Source of the DNA: a virus | DNA: 46,427 nucleotides | Direction: 5' to 3' (one strand) | IMG/VR virus record: IMGVR_UViG_3300034683_000076 | Location: 1-46,427 of that record | Shown: piece after piece, positions 3,493 to 28,184 of the stretch | Numbering within the stretch: the stretch's first letter is position 1 | How the letters are laid out: each line of letters opens with the position of its first letter | Program-made: the position numbers and the translations under genes | Notes under the pieces: generated by a model | The model's input: only the letters and a program-made list of their open reading frames with translations | Told to the model about the DNA's origin: nothing | Database searches by the model: none

Positions 3493-3521
3493 CATTGTAC
3501 ATGTCATCAATTTTATAAGGA

Positions 3522-3529
3522 TATATCAC
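3522..3529 (+). promoter_or_regulatory. Candidate early promoter, TATATCAC (one mismatch)
   Basis: GGATATATCACA matches the phiKZ early box TATATTAC at 7 of 8 bases and has the same GGATATAT lead-in as the box at 9166. It points into the weakly coding unit 3575-4411. Confidence 0.4.
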
Positions 3530-3596
3530 ATATACGATAACCTGTTACTACAGGTAAAATTTTAGTTGTGATACATGTACTATGTCCTGAAGTTCG

Positions 3597-6089: not shown

Positions 6090-6097
6090 TATATAAC
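6090..6097 (+). promoter_or_regulatory. Candidate early promoter, TATATAAC (one mismatch)
   Basis: CAGATATATAACATA matches the early box TATATTAC at 7 of 8 bases and lies 35 bases before the ATG at 6133. Confidence 0.45.
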
Positions 6098-9143: not shown

Positions 9144-9165
9144 ATTATTCGACATTTTTCAGGGA

Positions 9166-9173
9166 TATATTAC
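9166..9173 (+). promoter_or_regulatory. Early promoter box TATATTAC
   Basis: This is a perfect TATATTAC within GGATATATTACATTTTTA, just after a terminator and 52 bases before the ATG at 9226. It is identical to the phiKZ early-promoter box used by the virion RNA polymerase. Confidence 0.75.
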
Positions 9174-9225
9174 ATTTTTAAATTAGAACTTATTCTAAGT
9201 ACATTTAACTAAGGAGAATCGTTTT

Positions 9226-9780
9226 ATGTTTCCATTTCCAGAACATCTAAGTTTTATTGAGCACCATCGTTACGATGCAGAGATGAGTTTTATCGATGCC
9301 ACCACGATTATCGAGTATCCGAACAATCCGCAGGCCAGAAGCTTTGCATTGGTCCTATATTTGACGTTTCCTGTGTATCAGAATCGTCAAGTTCTCTGTA
9401 CTGATCGGGAAGACGTCCTATTTCGTGCACACGGAAACTTAATTGACTTGGATTTGGAAATCCCGTTCAGTTTCGAAGAGACTTTCTCGGATCACACAAA
9501 GTACGAAGAATGGGCTAAGATCCTTATCCACAAACACGTCATTGAAACCTACGTACACAACCATCCGTACGTGAATCAGCTCACTATTGAGTGTGCATAT
9601 GTTTCCAAGGAGGCTGAGTGCATTTCCTCATTGTGCGATATGCTGTACCAGATGGTCTGCGATACCCAAGCATCCCTGACTGTTGAAAGTAGTTTCAACA
9701 GTTATCAGCAACTGAAGGACTTGGACGACAGAGCTCATCGCTACTGCTACGAATTCCTAACAAAAGAGGTGACCAAATGA
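9226..9780 (+). CDS. Early protein of unknown function (184 aa)
   Basis: ATG follows AAGGAG. The 184-residue acidic product is rich in His, Tyr and aromatic residues, with a beta-rich first half and a helical second half holding several cysteines. No family is recognised. It has a perfect early box upstream and shares the ATGA overlap with the next gene, so the two are translationally coupled. Confidence 0.85.
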   Translation: MFPFPEHLSFIEHHRYDAEMSFIDATTIIEYPNNPQARSFALVLYLTFPVYQNRQVLCTDREDVLFRAHGNLIDLDLEIPFSFEETFSDHTKYEEWAKILIHKHVIETYVHNHPYVNQLTIECAYVSKEAECISSLCDMLYQMVCDTQASLTVESSFNSYQQLKDLDDRAHRYCYEFLTKEVTK

Positions 9781-10088
9781 AGATTATTGTAGTGGACGTT
9801 CTTCAGAAAGACCAACTCAAGAAGTGGGTGGTTGCAGATGTTCATGAGGCATGGAGACGTTTTGGGATTCCCTTTACGGAAGAAGACCAGAATGTGGTTG
9901 AAGTTCAAGTCTACGACAACAATGGACAAGACTGGACTTCGAAACTTCCTATACCTGTTCAAAAACAATACGAGGTAGTCTACTTTCCACAATTCCTGCC
10001 GGAAAGTTTTTTGATGGTCGACGATAAATTGCAGCCGACTGTTGATGTAGGAATATTCTCCATGACAGTGGAGTGGATCCATCAGTAG
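9777..10088 (+). CDS. Early protein of unknown function (103 aa)
   Basis: The start overlaps the stop of the previous gene (ATGA), with GAGGTG upstream inside that gene. The small product alternates beta-strand-like and short helical segments, with no known motif. The coupling suggests that the two products act together or in fixed ratio. Confidence 0.8.
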   Translation: MKIIVVDVLQKDQLKKWVVADVHEAWRRFGIPFTEEDQNVVEVQVYDNNGQDWTSKLPIPVQKQYEVVYFPQFLPESFLMVDDKLQPTVDVGIFSMTVEWIHQ

Positions 10089-10091
10089 TAT

Positions 10092-10123
10092 CGAGGAGAT
10101 AGCCCTATGGCTATCTCCTCGAT
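10092..10123. terminator. Bidirectional terminator
   Basis: A 14-bp perfect stem TCGAGGAGATAGCC with a CTAT loop lies between the convergent genes ending at 10088 (+) and 10125 (-). Confidence 0.9.
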
Positions 10124-10124
10124 G

Positions 10125-12671
10125 TTAACTAAAAGTTACGTGAGTATTCATTTTTTCTGGTCGGATGATGTTTCCATCCATAAGACATAAGACTTCACTA
10201 TCTACAAAGCCTTCGAACAAAACTGCTTCGTGATGGATCATCCACAACTGACTCACAAGACGCTGGTCTATGAGCGAGCGTAACCATTCCAATAGACTTT
10301 GTTTGTGAACAGGATCAAGTCCTTCGTCGCATTCGTCTAGGAATATAGGATAATCTAGCAATCTCTTACCTATCACGAATGCAAGCATCCATGCAAGATT
10401 GACGATAGCTTGCTGACCTTTACTTAGTCTTGATATGTCGGAAACGATAAGTCCATCCACAGAAATAGCAAATGTTCCATCAAAAGGAGAATCGTACGTT
10501 AGTTCTTCTATCTGTAAAGGATAACTCCACACCTGTGCAAGAACACAGTTGACGTTGTGTATCAAGGTGTTGGTATATTCTACCAAGTGTCTGTGTGGGA
10601 ATCCAGTATACGGAGAGAGACTTTTTTCTATCGTCTGATAATCCTTCCTGAGAAGTTCTAATTTTGTTATGTCCTCTATTGTGTCTTTCAGTCTTGCTAG
10701 ATGTCCGGTTTGAATTTGTAGAGTTTCATCTATCGTTCGTAGATCTTGAGTTAGTTCTGTACTTGATTTTTCAAGATCCACTAACATCTTTTTAGAGAAA
10801 CGACCTACAATCTTTAATTCGATGATGTCAGTTATTTTTTCAAAATCAGATTGTATTTGATTAAACGCCTTTTGCATCTGTCCCAGATGAAAATATTTTG
10901 TAGATTTATACTGATACGCATGAAGTTCTTCTTCATAGCCAGCAATACTCTTCAAAGCTACAGTATATTCGTTTTTCTTTTGAACAAGTAAGTCTTGAAT
11001 GAATGTACTGGACGTATTTGATTCCGTCATCCCTTTTAGTTGAGATTTCAACTTCAAGATCATTTCTTTATTTTCAAGTTCTTCATAATGAAGAAGAGAA
11101 TCTTCTATGATGCTACGTATGAGTGTATGAAATCTCTGAGGGTATACCAATTTCTCGGTTAAGTAGTATTCATCTTTCTCAAGTACTGTGGTCCTCAAAT
11201 GTTTTGCTATTTCATTTTTTAGATGCATCACATATTCATAACGCATACTGAAACATTGAAGAGCATCTCTTGCTTTCATAACTCGGAGTTTGTATGGACC
11301 AAGTCGTGCCAATTCTTCACGGTAGGTTTTTAACTTTTCATCAAGCAAGACAACTCTGGAGTAGTAGCTGTTGTAGTATTCACAGTTAGAAGAAGTTTCA
11401 TCGTTGCATGGTTTACTCATGGTTATTTGGAACTTCTCTTTTTCTAACTCTTCTATGTTTTTTCCAAGAGACAATTCCCGATTGAAGATATCTTCAGTTT
11501 TCTTAACATAATGTTCGTATTTACGTTGTATTTTGAAAAGTACATTTCTTGTTATAACAAATTTTGGGTTTTGAGATATATACTCTAAAATACTACACTG
11601 AGCTTTTTCTAATTGAGAAACTTGTCGTTTATAATCGTGTTTGGGAATAGGTACAAACTCATCATGATACTTATACGTTTTAGATTCTAATCGCAATAAC
11701 TCATCATGTATGAGTTCAGAAGTAAGATTGCTTTCTTCAGATTTTAAGTAATCTTGATACTTTCGTATCTCAGATACAATATCTTCAGCACGCTTTGAAG
11801 TTTCATGTATTCTCGTAGTAAGCTCTTCTTCCCTTCTTTTCAATTTCAAGTATATCTCTTCTCGTTCTTCTTCTGTGATCGTTTTATCTATGTCTACAAG
11901 ATTAAGTAATGACTTACAGATCTTTCTGGTACGAGAGTGTAGCTGATTAACAATAGCTAGGTCATCTTCTATCGCTACATGTTTATGGTCGCCCAATCTC
12001 TCATTGACTTCATCTATGATAGTTTTGAATCTGTTTATATCTGACAAAATGTTGATGAGTTGAGTATTCTTTGTTTTGTGGGTTTTTCTAAGTTCAGCAA
12101 GTAAATCTTCAGAAAGCAATTGATTTTCAGTTTGTATTTTCTTTTGTTGGAGATGTTTTATAGTCGCACGAAGATCTTTGATCTTGGCACAGATCTGTTT
12201 GTGCTTAGACAATACAAGTTCTAGATTGACTGGATTGATACCAAGTAAAAAATTCTTTCTTTCAGTCTTGCCCATCTTAGTCATGTGCAATTTATACTTG
12301 AGGATATTTTCTATCTGTTGAGTATACCCCAGATGCTGTTCTACTAATTCATTTTGTATACCACTAGTTCCAGATATATTGAGCTCTTCTCCATCTTTTA
12401 AAAATGAATGTGCTCCTTTAGATGTGGTGAAGTCTGAAATTAGAACATATTCACTTTTGTCGTGATGGATAACAAGTTTTTTATATCCTTTCTTGCCGTA
12501 GGTAGGGCGACTTGCAGCAAATGGTGTGAGTTCTTCAAGTAACGAACTTTTACCACTACCATTGTCACCTATAAATATCTGTATATCTGACCCACATTCC
12601 ATAGTAAGTCGTTTGATGCCCGAAAACCGAAATGGCATAAAGTCTCGAACTTCTGCATTTAAAATTTTCAT
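10125..12671 (-). CDS. SbcC/Rad50-like ATPase (T4 gp46-like recombination nuclease subunit)
   Basis: The product is 848 residues. The N-terminus has a Walker A loop (GDNGSGKS, residues about 35-42). Long coiled-coil arms fill roughly residues 170-700. The C-terminus has the ABC signature (LSKGQQ) followed by Walker B and D-loop (IFLDECDEGLD, near residue 775). This is the SMC/Rad50 layout, and phage members pair with an SbcD/gp47 nuclease to resect DNA ends for recombination-dependent replication. The apex has CNDETSSNC near residues 421-429 instead of a CxxC zinc hook. The nuclease partner is not in the window. The start is supported by GGAG 9 bases upstream and a late-type box at 12694. Confidence 0.9.
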   Translation of the reverse strand: MKILNAEVRDFMPFRFSGIKRLTMECGSDIQIFIGDNGSGKSSLLEELTPFAASRPTYGKKGYKKLVIHHDKSEYVLISDFTTSKGAHSFLKDGEELNISGTSGIQNELVEQHLGYTQQIENILKYKLHMTKMGKTERKNFLLGINPVNLELVLSKHKQICAKIKDLRATIKHLQQKKIQTENQLLSEDLLAELRKTHKTKNTQLINILSDINRFKTIIDEVNERLGDHKHVAIEDDLAIVNQLHSRTRKICKSLLNLVDIDKTITEEEREEIYLKLKRREEELTTRIHETSKRAEDIVSEIRKYQDYLKSEESNLTSELIHDELLRLESKTYKYHDEFVPIPKHDYKRQVSQLEKAQCSILEYISQNPKFVITRNVLFKIQRKYEHYVKKTEDIFNRELSLGKNIEELEKEKFQITMSKPCNDETSSNCEYYNSYYSRVVLLDEKLKTYREELARLGPYKLRVMKARDALQCFSMRYEYVMHLKNEIAKHLRTTVLEKDEYYLTEKLVYPQRFHTLIRSIIEDSLLHYEELENKEMILKLKSQLKGMTESNTSSTFIQDLLVQKKNEYTVALKSIAGYEEELHAYQYKSTKYFHLGQMQKAFNQIQSDFEKITDIIELKIVGRFSKKMLVDLEKSSTELTQDLRTIDETLQIQTGHLARLKDTIEDITKLELLRKDYQTIEKSLSPYTGFPHRHLVEYTNTLIHNVNCVLAQVWSYPLQIEELTYDSPFDGTFAISVDGLIVSDISRLSKGQQAIVNLAWMLAFVIGKRLLDYPIFLDECDEGLDPVHKQSLLEWLRSLIDQRLVSQLWMIHHEAVLFEGFVDSEVLCLMDGNIIRPEKMNTHVTFS

Positions 12672-12693
12672 CGATGTAGTCTCCAGTTAAGGT

Positions 12694-12702
12694 CTATACC
12701 AT
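12694..12702 (-). promoter_or_regulatory. Candidate middle/late promoter box ATGGTATAG
   Basis: The leftward strand reads ATGGTATAG, 22 bases before the SbcC-like gene start. It is identical to the box before the polymerase gene at 19463. Confidence 0.5.
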
Positions 12703-12751
12703 GTGTCTTGGTGACTGGAAATAACCGATAATTCTAGGTAGAAGTATTCTC

Positions 12752-12760
12752 ATCATATGC
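12752..12760 (+). promoter_or_regulatory. Candidate late promoter box ATCATATGC
   Basis: ATCATATGC lies 30 bases before the ATG at 12791 and fits the ATNNTATRN pattern. It is a weaker match than the others. Confidence 0.3.
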
Positions 12761-12790
12761 TTATTAACCTTCAAGTATGGAGATAAAATT

Positions 12791-13123
12791 ATGGCCTATG
12801 ACAACATGTCTAAGTATATCAAAAATGTGGTACATCCGTATATCGTCAACCTGCGGGATATGTTAAAATCTAATGTGGATTGGATACGAGAAAAATTTAA
12901 TGCTGTTGATAAAGATATAGCAGATACCAATGCCCATATCAGTAGTGTTGAACAAAATCTCAGCAACGAAATCCAAAACGTGGAAGCTAAACATGATGCG
13001 CATGCTTCACGTCGAAACAATCCCCATGTGGTAAAACTTACACAGACCGCTACCGTTAGTAGTCTTCCTCCTACAAATGTACAAGGAAGAACTGGGGATG
13101 CATGGATTCAAACATTAGATTGA
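12791..13123 (+). CDS. Small coiled-coil, fibre-like protein (110 aa)
   Basis: ATG follows TATGGAG. Residues about 20-70 are predicted coiled coil (heptad-like, with IREKFNAVDKDI and SSVEQNLSNEIQNVEAKH). The segment after it, HASRRNNPHVVKLTQT, resembles the H...NPH-V..TQ repeats in this phage's tail fibres. The C-terminus (TGDAWIQTLD) is like phage adhesin ends. It may be a small virion or fibre-associated protein, placed 22 bases before the 13146 gene in the same unit. Confidence 0.7.
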   Translation: MAYDNMSKYIKNVVHPYIVNLRDMLKSNVDWIREKFNAVDKDIADTNAHISSVEQNLSNEIQNVEAKHDAHASRRNNPHVVKLTQTATVSSLPPTNVQGRTGDAWIQTLD

Positions 13124-13145
13124 TATCTATTTAGGAGATGTGTCT

Positions 13146-14168
13146 ATGTTAAAAATTTTAGCTGTCAACTATTTTGCACCTAAAAATACAACCGAGGGAG
13201 AGATCCGAGTAATCGTCGAGGATGCTCTGGAATTTCAAGCTAAATTTTCAGAATCTGATTTTCCTATTAGTGTAGATGGATTCATTCACTTTGAACCCCG
13301 TATGGAACGGTTCTACATCTCGCATGACCAAACACCAATGACGGATGACCAAATCGCTATGATGCAGGAATTTGTCGACAACAAACTCTCTGACCTCTTA
13401 GATCTTCCTCAACCGGCGATCGATCCTGATTTAGGAAATCTTTGGATGGGGGTTGTAGATTCTAAAACAATCAAAGAAGAAAAACTCAGAGTCATAGATT
13501 CTTTGGGTCAATACCCGTCGTCCACAAGACCTCATCTCTACGATACTGACAATAAAACTTTCCATCCTGCGCATGTGGGTATTTTCGAAAACGGTTCTAT
13601 CCAGTTTTCCCCAGCCGATGTTCGTCCTAACCATGTGTTTTTCTATACTAAGGAACAATGGGACGATTTAGTATCGAAAAGTGATCTTCCTAAAAATCTC
13701 CATAGAGCATGGTTCAAGTATGATTTTGTTCACGATTGCATTATAGACAATCGTTCTGAAGAAGATAAAATGCTTGAAATCTATACAGAGCTGGATCAGT
13801 ATTCCTCAGAAGCACATCTGAAATACAACGGACAAATCGAAAAGACCTTCACAGATGCGGAGTATTATCGAGAACTTATGTACATGTTTGGAGATGAGAT
13901 AACTTCTATTGATCCTATACTGGAATATCTTAAGTTCCCGAAAGTGAAGGAACTTAAGTATGAAGAAACCGTTGATCCGTACATTCGTAAATTCGTTGAA
14001 GACTTTGAAAAGTTTTCGGCCATCGAAAAGATACGTATCCGCAAATTGAACCAAGTACAGCTTGTGCTCTTACATATGAAAAAGATAGATGCCAAAGCTA
14101 CATTTGGTAGTATTTCAAAATTCATAGAAATGGTAAAACAGCAAATCGATCTTATTTACAATTCATAA
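13146..14168 (+). CDS. Hypothetical protein, possible virion component (340 aa)
   Basis: ATG 13146 is chosen over GTG 13140 because AGGAG lies 8 bases before it. The 340-residue product has a beta-rich N-terminal half with many aromatic residues and Pro, and a helical, charged C-terminal half from about residue 200. No enzyme motif is visible. Its operon partner is a fibre-like protein and the upstream box is of the late type, which suggests a structural or assembly role. That is inference only. Confidence 0.75.
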   Translation: MLKILAVNYFAPKNTTEGEIRVIVEDALEFQAKFSESDFPISVDGFIHFEPRMERFYISHDQTPMTDDQIAMMQEFVDNKLSDLLDLPQPAIDPDLGNLWMGVVDSKTIKEEKLRVIDSLGQYPSSTRPHLYDTDNKTFHPAHVGIFENGSIQFSPADVRPNHVFFYTKEQWDDLVSKSDLPKNLHRAWFKYDFVHDCIIDNRSEEDKMLEIYTELDQYSSEAHLKYNGQIEKTFTDAEYYRELMYMFGDEITSIDPILEYLKFPKVKELKYEETVDPYIRKFVEDFEKFSAIEKIRIRKLNQVQLVLLHMKKIDAKATFGSISKFIEMVKQQIDLIYNS

Positions 14169-14170
14169 CT

Positions 14171-14202
14171 ACAGTATTGCTCTCTTCGGAGAGCAGTACT
14201 GT
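14171..14202 (+). terminator. Intrinsic terminator with TTCG loop
   Basis: A 14-bp stem with one T-G pair is closed by a TTCG tetraloop and followed by AAATTTATATTTTT. It is a textbook rho-independent terminator. Confidence 0.9.
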
Positions 14203-14274
14203 AAATTTATATTTTTGACTGGTAGCTTAATACCACCACTATATGTTATTATGACCAATCGAAAACAAATCGTA

Positions 14275-14282
14275 TATATTAC
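14275..14282 (+). promoter_or_regulatory. Early promoter box TATATTAC
   Basis: A perfect TATATTAC lies within GTATATATTACG, 35 bases before ATG 14318 and just after a terminator. Confidence 0.7.
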
Positions 14283-14317
14283 GAATTCATATTTCAAATT
14301 TCGTGGTAGGTAAAATC

Positions 14318-15208
14318 ATGTCAAAATTTCAATGTAATTCTAAAAATCATTTAGGAACTGTAATAGTTAAATCTGTGGCTGTATCTGTGGGTCCTTCTGG
14401 AGAAATTGCTACAATCATTAAATCTAAACCAGCAGCAAGATTTCCAAAACTGTTTCCTACTAAGGAAAATTCCAGGAAAAGAGAATTTCTTTGTGAACAC
14501 ATAAGTGTCGGAGATAGTTTTGATGTGCATCTAAGGAAAGATCAAGACGGAGAAGTGGAGATCTGGAAACCTAGTTTTCAATTTCCTAAGGACGAAAATA
14601 GTGTTACTTTAAACGATCCTCCAAAACTCTGTCCTTCGTGTAAGAGTGTTCTGTACGATGATGAAACCGGTATTTACTGTATCAATACTAGATGCCCTGC
14701 AAAACTTATCGTTAGTTTAGGATTGTTTTTGTCCTTCCTTAATTTCGATTGGGTAGGTACAAAGTTTACGAAAATATTGCCCTCCATGGTAACACACGGA
14801 ACTGTCCAAAAGATATCGGATATATTCAAGTGCGATTTATCTATCCTTATGGCTTACGGATTGGAACCAGATGAAGCTCAAACGTTTCTAAAATGGATGA
14901 AGACTAAAAAGAAAGCTTTGAAGTATTCTCAGTATTTGGAATATCTTATCCGTGTATTTTTGAATACTTCGGAAGGCAGGTTATTCCCTAAAGATGTACC
15001 CTGGGTACTCCATCACAAAGAACTTCAGACGGATTTTGATGTCATGGGATTTTTAGATTGGCAATCTGCAGTATATTCATCTGAACACGAGATCCCGGTT
15101 GATAGATATATGAATAAAGAAACATACGAAATCATTTCTCTTATTCTTTCTATACCTGAAAATTTTGAAAGTTTGATCGAGTTAGAAACCATAGGAGTTT
15201 TGAACTAG
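14318..15208 (+). CDS. LigA-like OB/zinc-finger/HhH protein without adenylation domain
   Basis: The product is 296 residues. It resembles the C-terminal part of NAD-dependent DNA ligase. Residues about 12-90 look like the OB-fold (SVGPSGEIA..., ISVGDSFDV). Next comes a four-cysteine finger at residues 105, 108, 121 and 126 (CPSC...CINTRCPA, close to the LigA C4 finger). A helix-hairpin-helix-like region follows from about residue 145 (FDWVGTKFTKILPS). The catalytic nucleotidyltransferase domain with its KxDG lysine is absent, so it cannot ligate alone. It may be a DNA-binding factor or half of a split ligase. ATG 14318 is preferred to GTG 14303. It is under a perfect early box. Confidence 0.65.
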   Translation: MSKFQCNSKNHLGTVIVKSVAVSVGPSGEIATIIKSKPAARFPKLFPTKENSRKREFLCEHISVGDSFDVHLRKDQDGEVEIWKPSFQFPKDENSVTLNDPPKLCPSCKSVLYDDETGIYCINTRCPAKLIVSLGLFLSFLNFDWVGTKFTKILPSMVTHGTVQKISDIFKCDLSILMAYGLEPDEAQTFLKWMKTKKKALKYSQYLEYLIRVFLNTSEGRLFPKDVPWVLHHKELQTDFDVMGFLDWQSAVYSSEHEIPVDRYMNKETYEIISLILSIPENFESLIELETIGVLN

Positions 15209-15230
15209 AAGCTCATACTAAAAATGCGGA

Positions 15231-15238
15231 TATATTAC
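15231..15238 (+). promoter_or_regulatory. Early promoter box TATATTAC
   Basis: A perfect TATATTAC lies within GGATATATTACACTAA, 127 bases before ATG 15366. This implies a long leader for that gene. Confidence 0.7.
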
Positions 15239-15365
15239 ACTAATGAATGCTCGGTATAAAAGTCAGATTAATTTTTATACACGACATCTATACTGTGCAA
15301 AAGAAATGTCGTATAGCTAACCACATCTAACCTTTAAACCACATCTCAAATTGAGGAGTTCCCGT

Positions 15366-15848
15366 ATGTCTAATGTTCCTTTTCAAAACGATGAAGAAAA
15401 AGTTAAATTTGTCAACGAAGCACTGGTTACCAACGAACAGGGTGTTCGCACTTTCCCGCGAGCCGCTGTCGTAGAGTTCTACGAAAAAAGCGGCATTGAT
15501 GTCAGTGCCCAGAAAGCATTCATTGAAACCGGCAAGTCTCTGTTTGGAACTTTGTTTTCCAAACATGTAAATGATCATCGCGCTGATATCCAGAAACGTC
15601 TCTCTGCTGGGGAAGATGTTAAAAGTAACCCTAAAACATTCGTGACCAAAGTCGAAACCCTTGAAGGTAAGGCGACGTTCACCGGAACTGATTACCGAAA
15701 TCACCAGGGTGAAATCGTCGCACTCACCGGAAAACCGAAAGCAGACGAATATGGAACTCAGCGGGTAACGATTTCGTCAACCAAACTCATTCCCAAAGCA
15801 ACACTGAAATCTGCTGTGGCAGACTTTAAAGCACTGTTTGAAAAGTAA
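15366..15848 (+). CDS. Probable highly expressed early protein (160 aa)
   Basis: ATG 15366 follows GAGGAG; an upstream in-frame codon at 15351 overlaps that site and is rejected. The 160-residue product is soluble and charge-balanced, with an N-terminal helical half and a C-terminal half of likely beta strands (TKVETLEGKATFTG, QRVTISSTKLIP). Third codon positions are richer in C and G than in neighbouring genes, as in the major capsid gene. With a perfect early promoter, a long leader and a very strong terminator, this suggests an abundant early protein. I do not recognise the family; a nucleic-acid-binding role is one option. Confidence 0.85.
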   Translation: MSNVPFQNDEEKVKFVNEALVTNEQGVRTFPRAAVVEFYEKSGIDVSAQKAFIETGKSLFGTLFSKHVNDHRADIQKRLSAGEDVKSNPKTFVTKVETLEGKATFTGTDYRNHQGEIVALTGKPKADEYGTQRVTISSTKLIPKATLKSAVADFKALFEK

Positions 15849-15860
15849 CGTTGTCTCTTG

Positions 15861-15894
15861 TAAGGATCTCTGCACACGTGTGCAGAGATCCTTA
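15861..15894 (+). terminator. Perfect palindromic terminator
   Basis: A 34-base perfect inverted repeat (17 bp per arm, TAAGGATCTCTGCACAC and its complement) follows the 15366 gene by 12 bases. It is strong and symmetrical. Confidence 0.85.
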
Positions 15895-16090
15895 TCTACT
15901 GTTATCTTACCTCTTAAGTTACTATCTCAAGTATCACTACAACGATGAACTTGAGAGCTCTTATGCACTTTTGTGTAGTTGGTATAGTGTCGTGTGGTTG
16001 TACGATAATTCTTCGAGAATTCTAAGCAAATATATTTCGGTGAGCAGAAAATACATAGGTATCAGTAGAGTCTATCTGGACAAGTATTTA
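15895..16090 (+). other. Gene-free interval between two terminators, possible small RNA
   Basis: The 325 bases between the genes ending at 15848 and starting at 16174 hold no ORF with a credible start and ribosome binding site. The interval lies between the hairpins at 15861-15894 and 16091-16123, so any transcript starting inside it would be about 200 bases long with its own terminator. Short inverted repeats such as AATTC-TTCGA-GAATT occur inside. I see no promoter box within it. Confidence 0.3.
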
Positions 16091-16123
16091 CAAGGCTATT
16101 CGGGTTATTTCCGAATAGCCTTG
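16091..16123 (+). terminator. Intrinsic terminator
   Basis: A 13-bp perfect stem CAAGGCTATTCGG with a 7-base loop GTTATTT is followed by GAATCTTT. No gene ends just before it, which is unusual here. Confidence 0.75.
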
Positions 16124-16173
16124 GAATCTTTAACTTGAGCTAATTGATTAGCTTTTATGTATGGAGGTTATTT

Positions 16174-17013
16174 ATGCATCAGGAAAGTAATCACGAAGCT
16201 TTGCACCTTGGCGGAAAACACATTGTCCTTTCGGACAAGGGTCTGATTTCTCCGAACACCCACGTATTGAAAGTCTCTGATTCTGAGTTCGTTCAAATAA
16301 CAGAGATGACATCTTTGGATCGACTTTACTTGTCAGCAAACACAGTACACCTGACGGGCACTCTATCGGCAGGTCTACTGTCCATTTCCGGGAATGAAGT
16401 GGTTTTCTCTGGTAAGGTTCTGTACTGGACGATGTACATTTGTGCCAAAACTGTGATCGACTTGGTCGAATGTCAGATCGAAGTTGAACGTATAAATTCT
16501 GCGATTCTTTCTGCTCCCCTGATCCGTTTACGGGAAGACCAGTTGAAACATTTCGTTACTGTTGGAACGGTTGAAGTTACGGATCATGAAGGTATTCCTC
16601 AGTACAGACTGGAACCGTCCAGAAAGTTCAAGTCAAAGTACCAGATGTCTAAGTTGTTTAACGTCCAAAAAACTATCGACCAACTTCTGCAGGAAGGATT
16701 GGAATTCCCCAAGGAAGAGTCTTTCGAATGGTACAAAAGTTCAGATGTCGTACCTCTTCCCAGGACGACGTATTCTCGAATAGAGCTGGAAGTGAGAGGA
16801 GTGAAAGAAGAAGAAGAAGCATCGGCACATGAAGATCCTAAGGATCCTGATTGTATTCCTATTGTTTACCTTCCAGAAAAATCGACCGAACAATCTACTG
16901 AACAATCTACCGAAGATTCTGAGAAAAGTCCTACCGTTCCGGAAGTCCCTCCCGTGTCCGAAAAAAGACCCAACTTCATTATCAACGACGCGATCGATTG
17001 TCCCGAAAATTGA
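16174..17013 (+). CDS. Probable beta-solenoid early-region protein with acidic Ser/Thr tail (279 aa)
   Basis: ATG 16174 follows GGAGG; the upstream TTG at 16144 has no site. Residues about 10-125 form short repeated strand-like segments (THVLKVSDSE, NTVHLTGTLS, NEVVFSGKV) typical of a small beta-solenoid. A segment at about residues 141-147 (GIPQYRL) is shared with the 6133 product. The C-terminal 70 residues are acidic and low in complexity, with STEQ repeats and Pro-rich stretches, and are probably disordered. No enzyme motif is visible. It may be a scaffold or interaction protein. Confidence 0.8.
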   Translation: MHQESNHEALHLGGKHIVLSDKGLISPNTHVLKVSDSEFVQITEMTSLDRLYLSANTVHLTGTLSAGLLSISGNEVVFSGKVLYWTMYICAKTVIDLVECQIEVERINSAILSAPLIRLREDQLKHFVTVGTVEVTDHEGIPQYRLEPSRKFKSKYQMSKLFNVQKTIDQLLQEGLEFPKEESFEWYKSSDVVPLPRTTYSRIELEVRGVKEEEEASAHEDPKDPDCIPIVYLPEKSTEQSTEQSTEDSEKSPTVPEVPPVSEKRPNFIINDAIDCPEN

Positions 17014-17021
17014 TTGTGGCA

Positions 17022-17058
17022 CATAAGAGTCTACCCCTTGATGGGGTAGACTCTTATG
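17022..17058. terminator. Bidirectional terminator
   Basis: A 16-bp perfect stem CATAAGAGTCTACCCC with a TTGAT loop lies between convergent genes ending at 17013 (+) and 17089 (-). Confidence 0.9.
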
Positions 17059-17088
17059 CAGTATAGAACGATATACCATTTATTTTTT

Positions 17089-17694
17089 TTAAATGAGTTT
17101 ACTGAGTTCAGTCGATACAAGAGTATATGCTGCAGCTATTGCATCTGCCTCATGCTCAATGATTTCCAACTGACCATCGATATATTTGGTTTTAGGAAAT
17201 ACGATATCGTGTAATTGCAAAGTATCGATCATCTGTTGTTTGCTTGCTCCACCATTTTCCGCAAATATTGATTTGATGAATTTTGGAGCATATTTTCTAA
17301 GTTTGAATTTATCGTAAACTGGCATGGGCCGATCTAGTTCTATCCATGCGTCATATAAAAAGTTCTCTATTGACGAGATACATAACAGTAATGCTCGATA
17401 TGCATTAGGTCTTCTGGGATTGTAAAATGTATCTTCAGTTACGACATAGTCGGGATCAAACTTAGTGTGTAAGTGTTTTGTACCCAGATACACTTCTTTT
17501 AGAGTTATTACTCCTGGAGGAAATTCCTTGGAGTCCGGACGTCGTTTCTTTGCTTGTCGAATAGCTTCGATACGGCCATAGTCAATAACCTTGAGATGTG
17601 AAGGTTCCCCAAGCGTATACTCCGAGAACCCCCATCCCAAGTTCGTTAATCCTGGATCGAAAGATAAGATCCTGACAGTGTTGCCTTTAAGCAT
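17089..17694 (-). CDS. RuvC-like Holliday junction resolvase
   Basis: The product is 201 residues with the RNase H-like resolvase motifs: SFDPGLTNLGWG (first Asp, residue 13), VVTEDTFY (Glu 87) and HEADAIAAAY (Asp 184), the acidic residues that bind metal. The family cuts branched DNA, here probably replication and recombination intermediates before packaging. The start overlaps the end of the polymerase gene by 8 bases, so translation is coupled. The basic loop after residue 40 (RQAKKRRPDSK) is longer than in bacterial RuvC. Confidence 0.85.
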   Translation of the reverse strand: MLKGNTVRILSFDPGLTNLGWGFSEYTLGEPSHLKVIDYGRIEAIRQAKKRRPDSKEFPPGVITLKEVYLGTKHLHTKFDPDYVVTEDTFYNPRRPNAYRALLLCISSIENFLYDAWIELDRPMPVYDKFKLRKYAPKFIKSIFAENGGASKQQMIDTLQLHDIVFPKTKYIDGQLEIIEHEADAIAAAYTLVSTELSKLI

Positions 17695-19432
17695 ATTGTT
17701 CCAAAATAGATTTTAAGGATTCTTCCATTTCTTCATAAGAAGGAAGATTAAAATATTGGTGACCTACCCAAACAGCATTTTCCTCAGGGTTAGCGAGAGC
17801 TCCATACAGAGGTTCTATTTCTGTTGTAGGTTGTCCTTCAATTTCCACAGTCGTTGCAATTTTTGTTTCCTTCGAGATACCGTATCCTGATTTGTATGAA
17901 GGATAGATTGCTTTATAGTCTAGGTCAGAACACATGACTAATATCATGGATTCGTAGTCTGGCTTTTCGACTATACATTTCATACCGATATCTTTGGTAA
18001 GATCTGCTTTGAGTACTGCTCCTCCTTGTTTACCAATATAATGATCATAAGGACCATGCATATTGTTACCAGTAGTAGCCAGTACTCGACCGTGGTCAGT
18101 TGCGAATTTATAGTAACTATCTTTAAGCATAGCCGCTTGTTTTGAAAAGTCTGCAAGTTGACTATGCTCGGAAAGTCCAAAGAGAGCACTTATATCGTTA
18201 TTCTTATCCTCCAAGAATTTCAAGAGAAGAACGTCTTGGATGTTGTATACAACATAATCCACAAATTCGTAAGATTGCATGTGGATGTGCCATTCTTTTC
18301 CAGGAGGAACATCTTCTTTATGCATCATCAGTTTACCAAATCCTAACTCTACGTTACAGATATGGTCTAGTGAATATGTGGGTTGTTTACGTTTGTGTTT
18401 TCTTACTCTAGAATAAAGTAACATCTGGTCTATCCATTGTGACATGGATGTGCATGAAAGCCAGTGCCACTTGTCGGTTATGTGCTGGGTCTTTTTCTTA
18501 TCTGGTTTATAACTCCAGTATCTCCATTCTTCAGGAACATCCGGATGACTGAATATATCTTTAGGTTCCAGATTGTAATATTCTAGTCTTTTTGCGATCT
18601 GAGGAACATCATAATCTATGTTCCATATACTAATATAATCAGATTCCATCCGATGTATGTCTTGAAATAACTCTTTAAGAAGATCATCTTCTCTATCAAA
18701 AAATTTGAGATGTAATTTGAATCTTTGATCTATGTCTACTTTATATTTGTCAGATTTATCAATTTTGATGTGAAGTTCATCACCATCTAAAGTACCCAAA
18801 TCTGTAGCGATCGCTTTACGTATATCTTTTTCTGTAGCTTTACGTACGTATTTTTTATCGGAAAATACCTTCATAAAGTCATTTAAAATATACGTGAATA
18901 TCTGGTTTTCGTGTATATACGTGACCGCATTGATTCTATCGCACCCAAGCACAGATTGTTCGATGTCAAGATATCCTTTTTCAAAAACATATACAGGATG
19001 TTGTTCTTTCTTCTGGTATGCCATGCGTACCAGGGTTTCCATTTTAATATCTGCGTTGTATATGTAGGGTGAGTTGTACAGTTCTCGTAAAGGTATACGT
19101 TTATACTCAGGATACCCTAAGATACGTTTTATTTCTTGACCTACATAACGATCGTCTACGATATACATATCCGTATTCTCTATAAGCTCAGTTTCTTTCT
19201 TAAGCTTATGATTACGACATGCAGGTTTAGTTATATATATTCTTCGTTTGGGATTGGTAAGATTAGGATCATTTATAGTCAGTCGATTTTTTGTCGATAG
19301 AACTTCATTAGTCTCTTTATCTATGACAACGGTCTTTTCTTTGACTATCATTTTGTTCCCTATGGGAGTTCTTACATAACACCCATGAGTCCATTGTCTG
19401 TTTGTCAAAGTAGCTCGTTCACTTGTAGCCAT
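17687..19432 (-). CDS. Family B DNA polymerase, N-terminal/exonuclease part (split or truncated)
   Basis: The product is 581 residues from ATG 19432 (GGAG upstream; the longer TTG start lies on the site itself). All three proofreading motifs are present: LDIE (Asp156, Glu158), WNIDYDVP (Asp275) and YNIQD (Asp400). Polymerase motif A follows (DYKAIYPS, Asp505), aligning well with T4 gp43 DLTSLYPS. The protein then ends after about 70 residues, with no motif B (Kx3NSxYG) and no motif C (DTD). The thumb and the second catalytic Asp must come from another gene. Placement beside the capsid gene recalls phiKZ, where polymerase genes also lie next to the capsid gene. Confidence 0.9.
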   Translation of the reverse strand: MATSERATLTNRQWTHGCYVRTPIGNKMIVKEKTVVIDKETNEVLSTKNRLTINDPNLTNPKRRIYITKPACRNHKLKKETELIENTDMYIVDDRYVGQEIKRILGYPEYKRIPLRELYNSPYIYNADIKMETLVRMAYQKKEQHPVYVFEKGYLDIEQSVLGCDRINAVTYIHENQIFTYILNDFMKVFSDKKYVRKATEKDIRKAIATDLGTLDGDELHIKIDKSDKYKVDIDQRFKLHLKFFDREDDLLKELFQDIHRMESDYISIWNIDYDVPQIAKRLEYYNLEPKDIFSHPDVPEEWRYWSYKPDKKKTQHITDKWHWLSCTSMSQWIDQMLLYSRVRKHKRKQPTYSLDHICNVELGFGKLMMHKEDVPPGKEWHIHMQSYEFVDYVVYNIQDVLLLKFLEDKNNDISALFGLSEHSQLADFSKQAAMLKDSYYKFATDHGRVLATTGNNMHGPYDHYIGKQGGAVLKADLTKDIGMKCIVEKPDYESMILVMCSDLDYKAIYPSYKSGYGISKETKIATTVEIEGQPTTEIEPLYGALANPEENAVWVGHQYFNLPSYEEMEESLKSILEQYA

Positions 19433-19462
19433 ATCAAACTCCAAAGATTGATTTATCGATAG

Positions 19463-19471
19463 CTATACCAT
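19463..19471 (-). promoter_or_regulatory. Candidate middle/late promoter box ATGGTATAG
   Basis: The leftward strand reads ATGGTATAG, 30 bases before the polymerase ATG. The sequence upstream (GTATATATTTACG) also resembles the early box with one inserted T, so early transcription cannot be excluded. Confidence 0.5.
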
Positions 19472-19502
19472 AACGTTTTATCGTAAATATATACAGGATA
19501 AA

Positions 19503-19533
19503 GAGGAGTTCTCCCTTTTGGGGAGAACTCCTC
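19503..19533 (-). terminator. Terminator of the capsid gene
   Basis: A 13-bp perfect stem GAGGAGTTCTCCC with a 5-base loop lies 45 bases after the capsid stop. The leftward strand continues with TTTATCC. Confidence 0.85.
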
Positions 19534-19578
19534 GTTTAGTACAGTTGATGTTGGTTCACATTAAGAACTGACGTTACA

Positions 19579-21924
19579 TTAGACACCCTGCAGGAAATTA
19601 CCATCTACCGGATCAGTGATGATCGGAGCGATCTGAGAAAGACCCTTAACCTGGATCAGTAAACCGGAGGGGTTAGTGATGATCGGGTATTCACGGGTGT
19701 TCAGATACATACGACGGTTAACCTGATTGCCATCAACAGGGGTGTAGTTCGATGCGAACTGTCCACCGTCGATGTTCTGGCCGAAGTTGAGGATGTTACC
19801 TGCATCACCTTCACGGTAAGGTACGATCAGTACCGTATCACGCATGAAAGCGAACGCGGTAGTGATGAACTGAAGTACTACACCACTGGGAAGCACACGA
19901 GTGTACTCTACGGCAGCAGAAGGATCAGTACCCTGGTAGATCTGTTCTCCTTCCATACCCTTCGGGTGCAGGTGGTTATGGATGTGCGGGATACCGAAGA
20001 TGGTTTCCAGAAGCAGACGAGAGGTGAGAACCTTATACACAGGTTTTTCACCGGGATTCAGCTGCTGCACATACAAAGAACGCTGATGCAGTTCTGCGAT
20101 CTGACGAGTCAGATATGCTTCAACATACATACGGATATCGCCGAGCAGGTCAGCAGATCTGATGCTTACGATATTCACCAGGTTCAGACTTTTGATGATC
20201 GTCGTGGGGTTGACGTGCTGTCCTGCAAGGTAAGTACGGTTAAGAGTACGTCCTTCCAGATTACTACGAAGGGTAGTAGTATTTTCACTGCTTTCCATGA
20301 CATTACGATCATGTACCTGACGCATGGTCTTGATGATGATCTGGATGTCACGGTAGTCGATACCAAGTGCCTGTGCTTTCTGACCTGCCTGCATAACGTG
20401 GTCAGGCAGAGTCTGCTGCATGGAGAAGTCGACTACGATGGCCTTGCCCTGAGGCAGTGCATACTGAACCGGATGAGTGAGCGAACGGATAGCTACGTTG
20501 GCTTTACGCAGGTTCTCTTCGCTGTACTTAGCATCCAGACTGTAACCGATAAGTTTTACTTTCATACCGGCAACAGCAGTCACCTGAGCTTCTACTGCAG
20601 GGATGTTGGTATCACGGACAGTATGCGACAGGCTACCTTCACCGATGCAATGTACAATACCAGTACGGATGTCTGCAGTCGGGGACAGAGTCAGAGACAG
20701 CATGGCCTGATCGTTATCGTTCACGCCAAAACTTTCGAAGATTTCACTATCAACATCTTCCACAGTTTTAGTTTCTTTGTTCAGGAAGAACGAAGGAGTA
20801 CAACGAGTGTTACGTTCAGAGCTTTCCTGGGTGTTGGTAACCATCAGAAGACGAGCATCCGGCTGTGCAGACAGGTCTACCTGGAATACTTCACTTTTGT
20901 CAACAGAACCATCTGCAGTAGTAGTGGAGATTTCTACCAGAGCATAGTCAAGTACGATCTGATCGGAAACAAGGTCCGTCCAGTTAGCATTGATAGTCGA
21001 GGGATTGCTTGCATCCACTGCCATGTCGAACATATGGATCTTAGCACCGAACTTCATGACATCGTCAGCGACAAGGAACTTGTCTTCCGGATCGTTTGCC
21101 TTGAGCAAGCGGAACCGAGTCAGAGTCATATCCGTGGGTTCAGGATGAGTTTCCAGTTCGAGCATGGGGATACGGTGCGCATGATCGTTACGAACCCGAG
21201 ATTCTTTGTTCTGGCTACGGTCCAGACGATAGAATTCATCGTAGTTCACAACGAACTGTACTGCAATAGCATTCGACGCTTTACGGTGCATGAAACGAGA
21301 CATGATGCCAGTATGAGGCTTCATCAGAGCTACAGTCAGAGCCATACGAATGTCCGGGAGGATCGTATCGCTGTTAGCACCGAAGGATTCTTTCGAAGGA
21401 GTTCCTTCAAAAAGAAGACCGTTGCTGATGTGACTGGGATAGAGCTGCTGCATAGACGACCGGCTATCGGACATCTTTTCACTTCCCTGTACAGAATTCC
21501 AGTGTTCGACGTAATCGTCGTTGGTGCTGAATCGAGACAGGATAGATGCCATCATCTTGCAGGTTTCAGTGATCTGGTTATCGGGAACTCCAGTTTCTTT
21601 ACAAAGAGTGATCAGATCATCACCGATGTTCAGAGAAGCCATTGCATTGGGATCTACTTTTACACGCTGGAAAGTACCGAATGCTTCGAATCCGAGAGGA
21701 ACCTGAGATACCTGCATGCTGTTAAGGAACTCAGTGACCTTACGGTAACACATGCCGATGTGTGTCCGGTCCGAAGGAGTAGTAGTTTCCTGAGGTTCTT
21801 TAGTTCCAGAATACAGCGAAAGCGATTCGTTTGCACCTACGGTCAGAGGATGACCGAACGTGGTCTGGAGCTTAGCAGCCGCAGAATCTACCTGTTTTTC
21901 AAAAATCGAGAATAATGTGGACAT
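19579..21924 (-). CDS. Major capsid protein (phiKZ gp120-like)
   Basis: ATG 21924 follows AAGGA; the first ATG at 21942 lies before that site. The 781-residue length is close to the phiKZ capsid protein (about 750), and the gene neighbourhood agrees. No HK97 motif can be proven by eye, so identity rests on length, overall resemblance to this family, and codon use: third positions are strongly C/G-biased and much more regular than in other genes, as expected for the most abundant virion protein. The helical N-terminal 150 residues may be a delta domain removed by the head protease; GSE at residues 147-149 is a possible cleavage site. A long antisense frame over it is a by-product of this codon bias. 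Confidence 0.85.
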   Translation of the reverse strand: MSTLFSIFEKQVDSAAAKLQTTFGHPLTVGANESLSLYSGTKEPQETTTPSDRTHIGMCYRKVTEFLNSMQVSQVPLGFEAFGTFQRVKVDPNAMASLNIGDDLITLCKETGVPDNQITETCKMMASILSRFSTNDDYVEHWNSVQGSEKMSDSRSSMQQLYPSHISNGLLFEGTPSKESFGANSDTILPDIRMALTVALMKPHTGIMSRFMHRKASNAIAVQFVVNYDEFYRLDRSQNKESRVRNDHAHRIPMLELETHPEPTDMTLTRFRLLKANDPEDKFLVADDVMKFGAKIHMFDMAVDASNPSTINANWTDLVSDQIVLDYALVEISTTTADGSVDKSEVFQVDLSAQPDARLLMVTNTQESSERNTRCTPSFFLNKETKTVEDVDSEIFESFGVNDNDQAMLSLTLSPTADIRTGIVHCIGEGSLSHTVRDTNIPAVEAQVTAVAGMKVKLIGYSLDAKYSEENLRKANVAIRSLTHPVQYALPQGKAIVVDFSMQQTLPDHVMQAGQKAQALGIDYRDIQIIIKTMRQVHDRNVMESSENTTTLRSNLEGRTLNRTYLAGQHVNPTTIIKSLNLVNIVSIRSADLLGDIRMYVEAYLTRQIAELHQRSLYVQQLNPGEKPVYKVLTSRLLLETIFGIPHIHNHLHPKGMEGEQIYQGTDPSAAVEYTRVLPSGVVLQFITTAFAFMRDTVLIVPYREGDAGNILNFGQNIDGGQFASNYTPVDGNQVNRRMYLNTREYPIITNPSGLLIQVKGLSQIAPIITDPVDGNFLQGV

Positions 21925-21967
21925 AAGGAATTCCTTGTACATGTTAATGTTTATTGGTTGCCCGGGT

Positions 21968-23476: not shown

Positions 23477-23514
23477 AACGAACACTCCTTTACCAGAGTT
23501 GAATTTTTATACCG

Positions 23515-23523
23515 GCATACCAT
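23515..23523 (-). promoter_or_regulatory. Candidate late promoter box ATGGTATGC
   Basis: The leftward strand reads ATGGTATGC, 38 bases before ATG 23476 and identical to the box at 3484. It probably drives the acidic gene and the major capsid gene. Confidence 0.55.
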
Positions 23524-23565
23524 ATATTTTGCACAACTAGATCAATAACGTTTTTGAGGATATCC

Positions 23566-25119: not shown

Positions 25120-25122
25120 AGA

Positions 25123-25150
25123 GAAGAACCCTGCTTCTGCGGGGTTCTTC
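25123..25150 (+). terminator. Intrinsic terminator
   Basis: A 12-bp stem (GAAGAACCCTGC with one T-G pair) with a TTCT loop is followed by CTTTC. It ends the helicase transcript. Confidence 0.85.
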
Positions 25151-25157
25151 CTTTCTG

Positions 25158-25166
25158 ATAGTATGA
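25158..25166 (+). promoter_or_regulatory. Candidate late promoter box ATAGTATGA
   Basis: ATAGTATGA lies 29 bases before ATG 25196, between a terminator and a tail-fibre gene. Confidence 0.5.
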
Positions 25167-25195
25167 CTTAGTTAACTAACCTGGAGGGTGTTTTT

Positions 25196-28045
25196 ATGCC
25201 TCAACAAGTCAATGGTAGTGATGGGGCTTCTTTAGTTGATACCCAGAACCACCCCGGAGGAACTCTTCTGGGTGGTGCAGCTATGGCACTTCGTGTTATC
25301 ACCAATAGTCTGATGTTGCACGACGAATCAATAGAATATCTTAGTCATGATCCTTCTGAAGGATCTATTCGTTCTGTACCATCTTCTCATGCTTTAGCAT
25401 TAGCGTATCAGAAATTAACAGATCAGTTGGAACAGATTGATCCACATCACAATTTCTTTTTGGATAATACAGTAATCACGCTTCCTTTAATTCCTCAAAT
25501 ATTCTCTGAGATAGATGATACTTGGGGAATCTTAAATTGGAATATAGTGGATGGTGAGATCTCCTATATTGGGAAAGATTACCAAGACAACAATTTCATC
25601 GAAATTAAAAACGAGAACTTTCATTTCGACGGAGATTACTTTTTCAAAATAGATATTCCAAGATTGGATTCCGGAAGATTAGAGTTAGTCGATACTGACG
25701 GTACCGTACTAAAAACTATCTCTACTGTAGGTTCACACTTTTTCGAGCTTTCAGTAAATGATTCAGAAATTCAAACTCTACAAGTTGTAGCTAAGGATGT
25801 GTTTCCTGAAGAGCTGATAGTTGTTCGTTCGATCAATATGCACAGGATAACTCCTCGTTTAAAGAATTATCTTCAGTACCTGTTCCAGAGTGGGGGAGGT
25901 ACCGGAGTTACCCACGAAGAGTTAGAGTCTGCTATTATAACTCTGACAGAAACTCTACAAGAACATATCCAAAGAAATATCCAAGAAGTAAAAGATCAAC
26001 TTTCTGCCCACTTGTCTGAATCTAATCCTCACCGGATCACTCCAGAAAGTATAGGAGCTGCAGCAGTCGATCATACCCACGATCTCGATGATCTTGGAGC
26101 TGCAGATAAAGATCATACGCATTTACCTGAAGAGATCGGAGCAGCTCCTGAAAGACACACGCACACTAAAGCCGATGTGGGATTAGAAAATATCCCAAAC
26201 GCTATTAGCGATGCGGTTGATCTGGATAGCAATACGACTTTGGCCACATCACTTGCTGTGAGTGTATTGCGACAGTATCTGTTGAACATATTGCTCAATA
26301 AAGCAGATACGGAACATACACACACCTTGGATTCTCTTGGAGCAGCTCCAAAAGTACATGAACATCCGGAATATCTGGGAGAAGCACAAGTTCGTAATGT
26401 GATCAATGAGATCCTGGATGCTTCTGGAGTCGGAAGTACACTTCTTGCGCCTAATGTACTCACAAATGCTCCACAAGGGTATCTTCCTATCGAGTTAGAA
26501 AATACTCAGATCACAGCTCCAGTGAGCATGGTACTGACTAGTGACATATTGCACACATCTTCATCTGAATATGATTACAAATCAGGAGTAGCTGTCACAA
26601 GCGTGCCTCCTATCGATGAACATCCTGCACAGTACGGATTTAAAGTTCTTCTTACTGAAGAAGATGCCAGTATCGGATATACTGCATTTTTAAGTGAAAC
26701 AGAAGATCTAGATCCTTTTGTACTTGTAGGGTATATGTTTCATACTGACAGGAAGATATCTGGTTATGAGATACTTCCCGAGCCTGAAGCTGGGGTTATG
26801 GGATATCCTCGTTCCTGGGAATTCCTCATAGACAATTTGCTTGTAGAAACAAAGACCTTCACTGATCCATGGGATACCACATACACACCATACAAGTCTA
26901 CGCTGGCAGAGTCTAAATCTGGTAAGTTTTTTGGATTCTTGATACGTAAAGTAGATCTTCTCGGAAGTAACAAGTGGATGTTCCGAGTCAAATTCGATTT
27001 TGTAGATGTAGAACCAAATAAACTTACAGTGATCGAAGGTACAGAACTCACATATGCAGATGCGTCTGGAAGTGTATCTACTATCATAGCTCAAGATGGA
27101 CTTTCTATCTCTCCTAATCTGACTAGTGCAAGATCTCCATTATACTTACTCATGTCAGAAAACGAAGAAGGAGAAGTAGTACTTGAGACAAGTATATTGA
27201 AACCTGAATTTAGTCTTAGTCCGAGAGGATATGACGGATTGACAGGTGGATATGCAGAGAAAACGAATCCTTATTGGGGAGATGTGTCTGTATCTGATGA
27301 AGATCCACAAAATCCTGTAGAAAATATCTACGGAGAAAATGTTCCCGATATCTATCTGAGTAACGAAGGAGTTACTGAAGTAACTATCACACATTCGTTC
27401 TTAGAACCTTTAAGTATCCTTGAACACTCGTATGTGTTTGAAAAGAGGATGCTTTTAGAAAATACCATACCTAACCAGATCAAATTAGAATATTTGATCG
27501 GAGAAGAGTATACTGAGATAGAACTGCTGACACATTTTTATCCTGGGATATCTGGCAAAGATTCTCCTGCTATTTGGTATAGGAAAAAATATCCCATACC
27601 TAAAGAAAATATACTTGGGTATAAGTTAACTTTAAAAGGAACTCAATCTCAAACACGTGTAGGTTTAGGACAGTTTATTTTAAGGTTCGCTACGCCATAC
27701 TTGAATATAGCGTCTGGAACAATGTCTCCACCTAAAGGATTCTTAGGAACGATCAAGTACATAGAAAGCTATGATAAAATGTGGTCTGGATTAACTTATG
27801 ATGGACCTATATTAGGTCGCTATGGTTATATCCCAGTCGATCATTTTAATGTACAACCTGACAAAGAAGTAGTTCACAGAATCCCCAATCCATTCAATAC
27901 AGAATTGGTGGATTGTCAGATCCAGATACAAGATGTCTATAGTGCGGTTCCTCCGGCTAAGATATCTGAGATCACGGATAAAGAAATCGTAATCACGACG
28001 TACTTAAAAGGAAGATATGTTGTCTTGATTAAGCGACTTTGGTAA
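25196..28045 (+). CDS. Large tail-fibre protein with His-x-His repeats (949 aa)
   Basis: ATG follows GGAGGG. The N-terminal 230 residues share a block (SVPSSHALA) and overall layout with the 29842 product, suggesting a common virion-anchoring domain. A coiled coil then leads to repeats at about residues 275-400: NPHRITPESIGAA, then GAA-x-x-HTH units spaced about 20 residues apart, and VGLENIPN. Such units form fibrous shafts in which His residues can bind metal ions. The last 500 residues are beta-rich and are likely to hold the receptor-binding part. It is the largest gene in the window. Confidence 0.85.
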   Translation: MPQQVNGSDGASLVDTQNHPGGTLLGGAAMALRVITNSLMLHDESIEYLSHDPSEGSIRSVPSSHALALAYQKLTDQLEQIDPHHNFFLDNTVITLPLIPQIFSEIDDTWGILNWNIVDGEISYIGKDYQDNNFIEIKNENFHFDGDYFFKIDIPRLDSGRLELVDTDGTVLKTISTVGSHFFELSVNDSEIQTLQVVAKDVFPEELIVVRSINMHRITPRLKNYLQYLFQSGGGTGVTHEELESAIITLTETLQEHIQRNIQEVKDQLSAHLSESNPHRITPESIGAAAVDHTHDLDDLGAADKDHTHLPEEIGAAPERHTHTKADVGLENIPNAISDAVDLDSNTTLATSLAVSVLRQYLLNILLNKADTEHTHTLDSLGAAPKVHEHPEYLGEAQVRNVINEILDASGVGSTLLAPNVLTNAPQGYLPIELENTQITAPVSMVLTSDILHTSSSEYDYKSGVAVTSVPPIDEHPAQYGFKVLLTEEDASIGYTAFLSETEDLDPFVLVGYMFHTDRKISGYEILPEPEAGVMGYPRSWEFLIDNLLVETKTFTDPWDTTYTPYKSTLAESKSGKFFGFLIRKVDLLGSNKWMFRVKFDFVDVEPNKLTVIEGTELTYADASGSVSTIIAQDGLSISPNLTSARSPLYLLMSENEEGEVVLETSILKPEFSLSPRGYDGLTGGYAEKTNPYWGDVSVSDEDPQNPVENIYGENVPDIYLSNEGVTEVTITHSFLEPLSILEHSYVFEKRMLLENTIPNQIKLEYLIGEEYTEIELLTHFYPGISGKDSPAIWYRKKYPIPKENILGYKLTLKGTQSQTRVGLGQFILRFATPYLNIASGTMSPPKGFLGTIKYIESYDKMWSGLTYDGPILGRYGYIPVDHFNVQPDKEVVHRIPNPFNTELVDCQIQIQDVYSAVPPAKISEITDKEIVITTYLKGRYVVLIKRLW

Positions 28046-28051
28046 ATAACC

Positions 28052-28088
28052 GTATATCTAGAGGACCGTATTGGTCCTCTAGATATAC
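28052..28088 (+). terminator. Intrinsic terminator
   Basis: A 16-bp perfect stem GTATATCTAGAGGACC with a 5-base loop follows the fibre gene by 6 bases. Confidence 0.85.
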
Positions 28089-28142
28089 ATATAAATTCAC
28101 TTTAACAACATGTACTATACAGGTTCATCGTGTTTATAGGTC

Positions 28143-28150
28143 TATATTAC
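28143..28150 (+). promoter_or_regulatory. Early promoter box TATATTAC
   Basis: A perfect TATATTAC lies 34 bases before ATG 28185, right after a terminator and inside the tail-fibre region. Confidence 0.7.
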
Positions 28151-28184
28151 TAATTCGAACGTTCACAATTTAAAGGAGTCGGAT

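Follow-up and report, generated by a model that had tools for sequence, protein, structure and literature searches.

Predicted phiKZ-type early promoters in the genome of an undescribed jumbo phage

The octamer TATATTAC, the core of the early box of phage phiKZ, recurs in a stretch of viral DNA of 46,427 nucleotides (nt), positions 1-46,427 of IMG/VR record IMGVR_UViG_3300034683_000076 (hereafter the window), which belongs to an undescribed phiKZ-like jumbo phage with a closed map of about 209.6 kb. The copies at 9166, 15231 and 28143, together with a near-copy at 3522, are very probably the cores of phiKZ-type early promoters read by a virion-carried RNA polymerase (vRNAP); that this enzyme recognises them, starts at the predicted bases and does so early in infection is carried over from phiKZ and phage AR9. 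The promoter seen by the vRNAP would be an extended AT-rich sequence of roughly TTTRARGGA-TATATTAC, with transcription beginning on a purine, in most cases G, six bases past the core and covering short units that end at hairpin terminators. Across the genome, some 27 sites of this type would drive small proteins of no known family and a second, non-virion RNA polymerase (nvRNAP), which would take over later. The switch is of a known kind, here in an undescribed phage. The boxes provide a predicted transcript map of this uncultured giant phage and point to the proteins that are probably expressed first, most of which lack known relatives.

Abundance and placement of the core octamer

The analysis followed up a sequence-only reading that had placed intact octamers on the plus strand at 9166, 14275, 15231 and 28143, between 34 and 127 nt before a start codon and just after a terminator or gene end. 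All four were found there, at distances of 52, 35, 127 and 34 nt respectively, with hairpins before 9166, 14275 and 28143 and a stop codon 22 nt before 15231. Both one-mismatch copies that it had listed, at 3522 (TATATCAC) and 6090 (TATATAAC), also exist. Its statement that all copies lie on the plus strand was mistaken, as a fifth perfect copy occupies 2993-3000 on the minus strand, inside gene 2634-3458(-).

The window copies could be regarded as chance matches of an AT-rich octamer in an AT-rich phage, and the count in the window alone is indeed not above chance, with five copies found vs 2.34 expected and five reached in 10 of 100 shuffles, while one-mismatch copies fall below expectation (46 vs 61). 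The significance of the octamer therefore emerges only genome-wide. The closed map holds 29 copies, 27 on the plus strand and two on the minus strand; by automatic gene calling 25 of the 29 are intergenic, all on the plus strand, and both minus-strand copies are coding. Copies equally common inside genes, which the sequence-only reading had named as evidence against itself, were not what was found, since 25 of 29 in an intergenic fraction of 13.6% corresponds to a binomial p of ~3e-18. The genome-wide count that it had proposed, set against expectations from a first-order model, gave 25 intergenic copies on the plus strand vs 1.39 expected and none on the minus strand vs 1.21 expected, and no other octamer is as strongly over-represented as TATATTAC in the intergenic DNA of the plus strand. 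The plus strand carries ~70% of coding bases and genes, so that 25 of 25 on that strand would arise by gene orientation alone with a probability of about 1e-4. This genome-wide excess, the intergenic placement and the strand purity make chance a very unlikely explanation of the window copies as a set.

The extended element and its flanks

The full element is about TTTRARGGA-TATATTAC-N6-G/A(+1), in which the predicted start base lies 6 nt after the core; of the 25 intergenic copies, 19 have G there and six have A. The purine is present at the expected position in the window, as G at 15231, 28143 and 3522 and as A at 9166. A position weight matrix (PWM) of the flanks was trained on 20 plus-strand copies from the rest of the genome, beyond the window and its upstream extension, and held-out copies were scored by their flanks only, with the octamer left out. 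Held-out sites in the extension gave p values of 1e-5 (-3359), 7e-5 (-4054) and 0.013 (-14311), and in the window the values were 2e-5 at 28143, 3e-4 at 9166 and 0.0027 at 15231, scores that refute chance for these three sites. Random flanks were seen at 14275 (p=0.51) and at 2993 on the minus strand (p=0.64), and chance remains the preferred reading for these two copies and for 6090. The 14275 copy is probably among the one or two chance matches to be expected in a set of 25, at most a weak or atypical site. Judged by their flanks and start bases, 9166, 15231, 28143 and the near-copy 3522 appear to be promoters of one kind. At a threshold of 12 the full PWM found 34 matches on the plus strand and none on the minus strand genome-wide, and none on the minus strand at higher thresholds either. 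For the reading of a single window the bare octamer is thus too weak, and it is the flanks and the start base that part real sites from chance copies.

RNA polymerase genes and the boxes before them

The genome encodes homologues of the phiKZ vRNAP proteins gp80, gp149, gp178 and gp180 (E values 1e-37 to 1e-128), and homologues of the nvRNAP proteins gp55, gp71/gp73, gp74 and gp123 are also present. Early boxes are placed ahead of a gp68-family gene (at 57 nt; this gene and phiKZ gp68 both match phrog_3209), of the gp71/73 gene (at 45 nt) and of the gene that precedes gp123 (at 64 nt), and a two-mismatch site with excellent flanks stands ahead of the gene preceding gp55. The phiKZ boxes at 57984, 120657 and 45568 precede gp68, gp121-123 and gp54-55, respectively. 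This pairing of box and polymerase operon, conserved with phiKZ, is the best functional argument that can be drawn from sequence. The sequence-only reading had identified the phiKZ box correctly and was right in kind; its assignment stands for 9166, 15231, 28143 and 3522, which have the extended upstream element and the purine, and falls for 14275 and 6090.

Two other roles for the boxes were weighed against that of vRNAP early promoters. A role as middle or late nvRNAP promoters, or as another regulatory site, is highly unlikely: some AR9 genes do carry early and late promoters together (PMC5312081), but in phiKZ the late promoters consist of a short TATG at the start site and the middle promoters of a weak AT-rich motif at -24 (PMC7598289), neither of which looks like the long element here, and the boxes precede the nvRNAP genes themselves. 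That they are -10 elements of the host sigma-70 RNA polymerase is the least credible proposal. TATATT is similar to TATAAT, and loose sigma-70 matches at 9149-9176 and 14251-14280 overlap boxes, but the total of sigma-70-like sites (50) does not exceed the 60.9 expected by chance, the conserved flank is an unbroken TTTRARGGA adjoining the core with no -35 element at 17 nt spacing, and the phage itself encodes two sets of RNA polymerase genes.

Several points weigh against the assignment to vRNAP early promoters. The flank PWM rests on just 20 sites, 9166 has A rather than the preferred G at the predicted start, and 15231 combines moderate flanks with a long leader of 127 nt. Relatives were sought in which conservation of the window boxes at orthologous genes could be tested, and none close was found. 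The joined map was, in addition, built from contigs of sibling samples, with no isolate.

The nvRNAP beta-like parts lie in one gene of 720 amino acids (aa; L056:4661-6823), where phiKZ has two genes (gp71, gp73). The 538-aa gene before the gp55 homologue (L055:8875-10491) occupies the position of chimallin in phiKZ and has an early-promoter score among the highest, and its identification as chimallin by synteny is unsupported by sequence, the gene resembling neither chimallin nor any phage record. To test for membership in the nucleus-forming phages (Chimalliviridae), the ~209.6 kb were searched for chimallin with phiKZ gp54, a 7-sequence profile and phrog_4795, and no match was obtained; the same family model also matched nothing in SPN3US, so that this negative does not establish the absence of chimallin. 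No match to the tubulin PhuZ was obtained.

Predicted promoters and transcription units

The features are collected in Table 1. The products of genes 9226-9780 and 9777-10088 have no PHROG or Pfam match, that of 15366-15848 has no relative among 50,697 phage records, and that of 28185-29738 has no PHROG, Pfam or phage tblastn match.

Table 1. Early-box copies and associated genes; L-prefixed positions lie on the joined contigs. Flank p values are given in the text.
Feature	Position	Strand	Sequence	Details
Predicted early promoter	9152..9181	+	TTTTTCAGGGA-TATATTAC(9166-9173)-ATTTTT-A	Predicted +1 9180; flank 9.3 bits; full PWM 22.9; ahead of ATG 9226; strong hairpin 9111-9144 precedes
Predicted early transcription unit	9226..10088	+		Genes 9226-9780 and 9777-10088; hairpin 9111-9144 before, ~10086-10127 after
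Predicted early promoter	15217..15246	+	AAAAATGCGGA-TATATTAC(15231-15238)-ACTAAT-G	Predicted +1 15245; full PWM 18.4; ahead of ATG 15366
Predicted early gene, 160 aa	15366..15848	+		Single-gene unit; hairpin terminator 15860-15895 downstream
Predicted early promoter, top score in window	28129..28158	+	GTTTATAGGTC-TATATTAC(28143-28150)-TAATTC-G	Predicted +1 28157; full PWM 28.1; ahead of ATG 28185; strong hairpin 28052-28088 precedes
Predicted early gene, 517 aa	28185..29738	+		Single-gene unit among tail-fibre-like genes; enclosed by hairpins 28052-28088 and 29762-29799
Probable early promoter, one core mismatch	3508..3537	+	TTTTATAAGGA-TATATCAC(3522-3529)-ATATAC-G	Predicted +1 3536; full PWM 16.1
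Perfect octamer, random flanks, probably a chance copy	14275..14282	+	TATATTAC	Before ATG 14318; flank -16.0 bits; strong hairpin 14170-14203 precedes
One-mismatch copy, unsupported as promoter	6090..6097	+	TATATAAC	Full PWM 1.4; flank -7.1
Fifth perfect octamer, chance copy	2993..3000	-	TATATTAC	Inside coding gene 2634-3458(-)
DUF285 genes	L049:15835-17178; L054:8263-8955; L011:13744-14295			Directly behind three perfect early boxes

Between the 3522 and 9166 promoters lie two tandem paralogue pairs without an early box of their own (5291-6942 and 7684-9093, plus strand), with identities of 37.5% over 48 aa and 35.5% over 197 aa, respectively. The gene at 14318-15208 (+) resembles only part of NAD-dependent DNA ligase, its C-terminal half with the C4 zinc finger region, and the catalytic half was not seen adjacent to it. 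At 17904 (+) there is a two-mismatch promoter-like site with a score of 13.6, antisense to the DNA polymerase gene and probably due to chance. Elsewhere in the genome, a tandem pair of perfect boxes 38 nt apart stands ahead of one gene (L049:458-503). The DUF285 repeat proteins of Table 1 (PF03382) belong to a family named from Mycoplasma, and the product of a further early-box gene (L054:357-1397) is a complete member of the MYG1 exonuclease family (PF03690, E 2e-59).

Identity of the phage and the joined map

By protein family matching, window proteins match the phiKZ-type DNA polymerase (phrog_3011), a DnaB-like helicase and the major head protein, as well as an SbcC-like protein, a UvsX-like protein and tail fibres. 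The DNA polymerase is <30% identical to its best matches, phages of Erwinia, Salmonella and Burkholderia among them, and megablast of window positions 8000-20000 against known phages gave no nucleotide match. Protein scans of IMG/VR with the DNA polymerase and helicase returned a single near-identical contig and nothing else, with 17 differences from the window in an overlap of 30,289 nt. This contig lengthens the window by 14,987 nt upstream and brings three more plus-strand copies of TATATTAC and none on the minus strand; the sequences preceding two of these, TTTCAGGGA and TTTGAAGGA, are shared or nearly so with the 9166 site.

A scan of 2.9 million viral contigs for the 17-base extended motif TTTSARGGATATATTAC found more than one copy in three contigs only, two newly found and one already known, and these three come from samples 3300034683 and 3300034684. 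Exact or near-exact overlaps link the window with three IMG/VR contigs (G001, G002, G003; L010-L012, L049-L057), and the far contig end joins the window end through an overlap of 2,932 nt with 0 mismatches, giving a closed circular map of 209,572 nt with a G+C content of 39.2%. The overlap of two contigs contains 27 mismatches in 10,856 nt, so that the map is that of a population rather than of a single isolate. Two other contigs (G008, G010), each with a single TTTSARGGATATATTAC match and one-sided copies, were rejected as unrelated, their sites being otherwise without shared flanks. The extended motif can thus serve as a hook to recover further contigs of one genome from 2.9 million.

Strand polarity of early boxes

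The pattern TATATTAY-N6-G was counted per strand in 14 genomes. As in the present phage, the sites face one way in 12 phiKZ-like genomes, none of which has more than two exceptions, though genes occupy both strands (24:1, 6:0, 7:0, 6:0, 0:9, 15:0, 0:9, 5:0, 8:0, 0:12, 18:1 and 26:2). The counts were 2:3 in T4 and 33:15 in AR9, where the background of matches to the reversed pattern is high. The relative in IMG/VR that is closest by terminase (39% identity) gave 59:13 for the looser N6-R pattern, and several other IMG/VR relatives in the terminase set were too AT-rich, or had too few matches, for polarity to be judged. It is conceivable, if rather unlikely, that early-box polarity is under selection, for example through vRNAP transcribing during DNA entry in a fixed direction relative to entry. 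A statement of the polarity rule was not found in the literature covered, which did not include the original phiKZ and OBP papers, and the rule may be known already. Near-complete one-way polarity across the group is a testable architectural rule.

Comparison with known early promoters

Published phiKZ and OBP consensus sequences were taken from papers quoting them. The AR9 early promoter, AAATATATATTAT-(6N)-G, is used by its vRNAP (PMC5312081), and AR9 shares with the present phage an AT-rich element and a start G 6 nt downstream (PMC5312081), but differs in the upstream sequence, in being uracil-containing and in forming no nucleus. The element described here resembles the predicted promoters of 201phi2-1, OBP and phiKZ (PMC7058600 Table 2). 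The predicted OBP / N1M2 early promoter, given in that table as TTTYARRYAKATATTAT, has the same TTTYARR block and spacing, to which the 9166 site (TTTCAGGGATATATTAC) is a close fit, although the core ends in T there and in C here. For the Pseudomonas phage 201phi2-1 the predicted early promoter is TTAWTAVAA_HYWTTTRARR_BTATATTACDWHDGTG (PMC7058600 Table 2), which shares the upstream TTTRARR, the TATATTAC core and the G six bases after it, with 24:1 sites on one strand; the start there is mostly GTG, in contrast to four of 25 here.

The 28 early promoters of phiKZ are used by its vRNAP independently of the host polymerase and of rifampicin (PMC13282480), and the start lies 6 nt downstream of the element in phiKZ and phiR1-37 (PMC5312081). 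The upstream TTTRARGGA and a TTT-GA-like start context are conserved in the present phage, whereas the phiKZ start is mostly ATG, GTG or TTG. Both phages nevertheless have the TATATTAC core in intergenic positions tens of nt before a start codon, a start (predicted here) 6 nt downstream and boxes ahead of the nvRNAP genes, and in phiKZ too the boxes lie nearly all on one strand (33:9 for the octamer and 26:2 for TATATTAY-N6-G).

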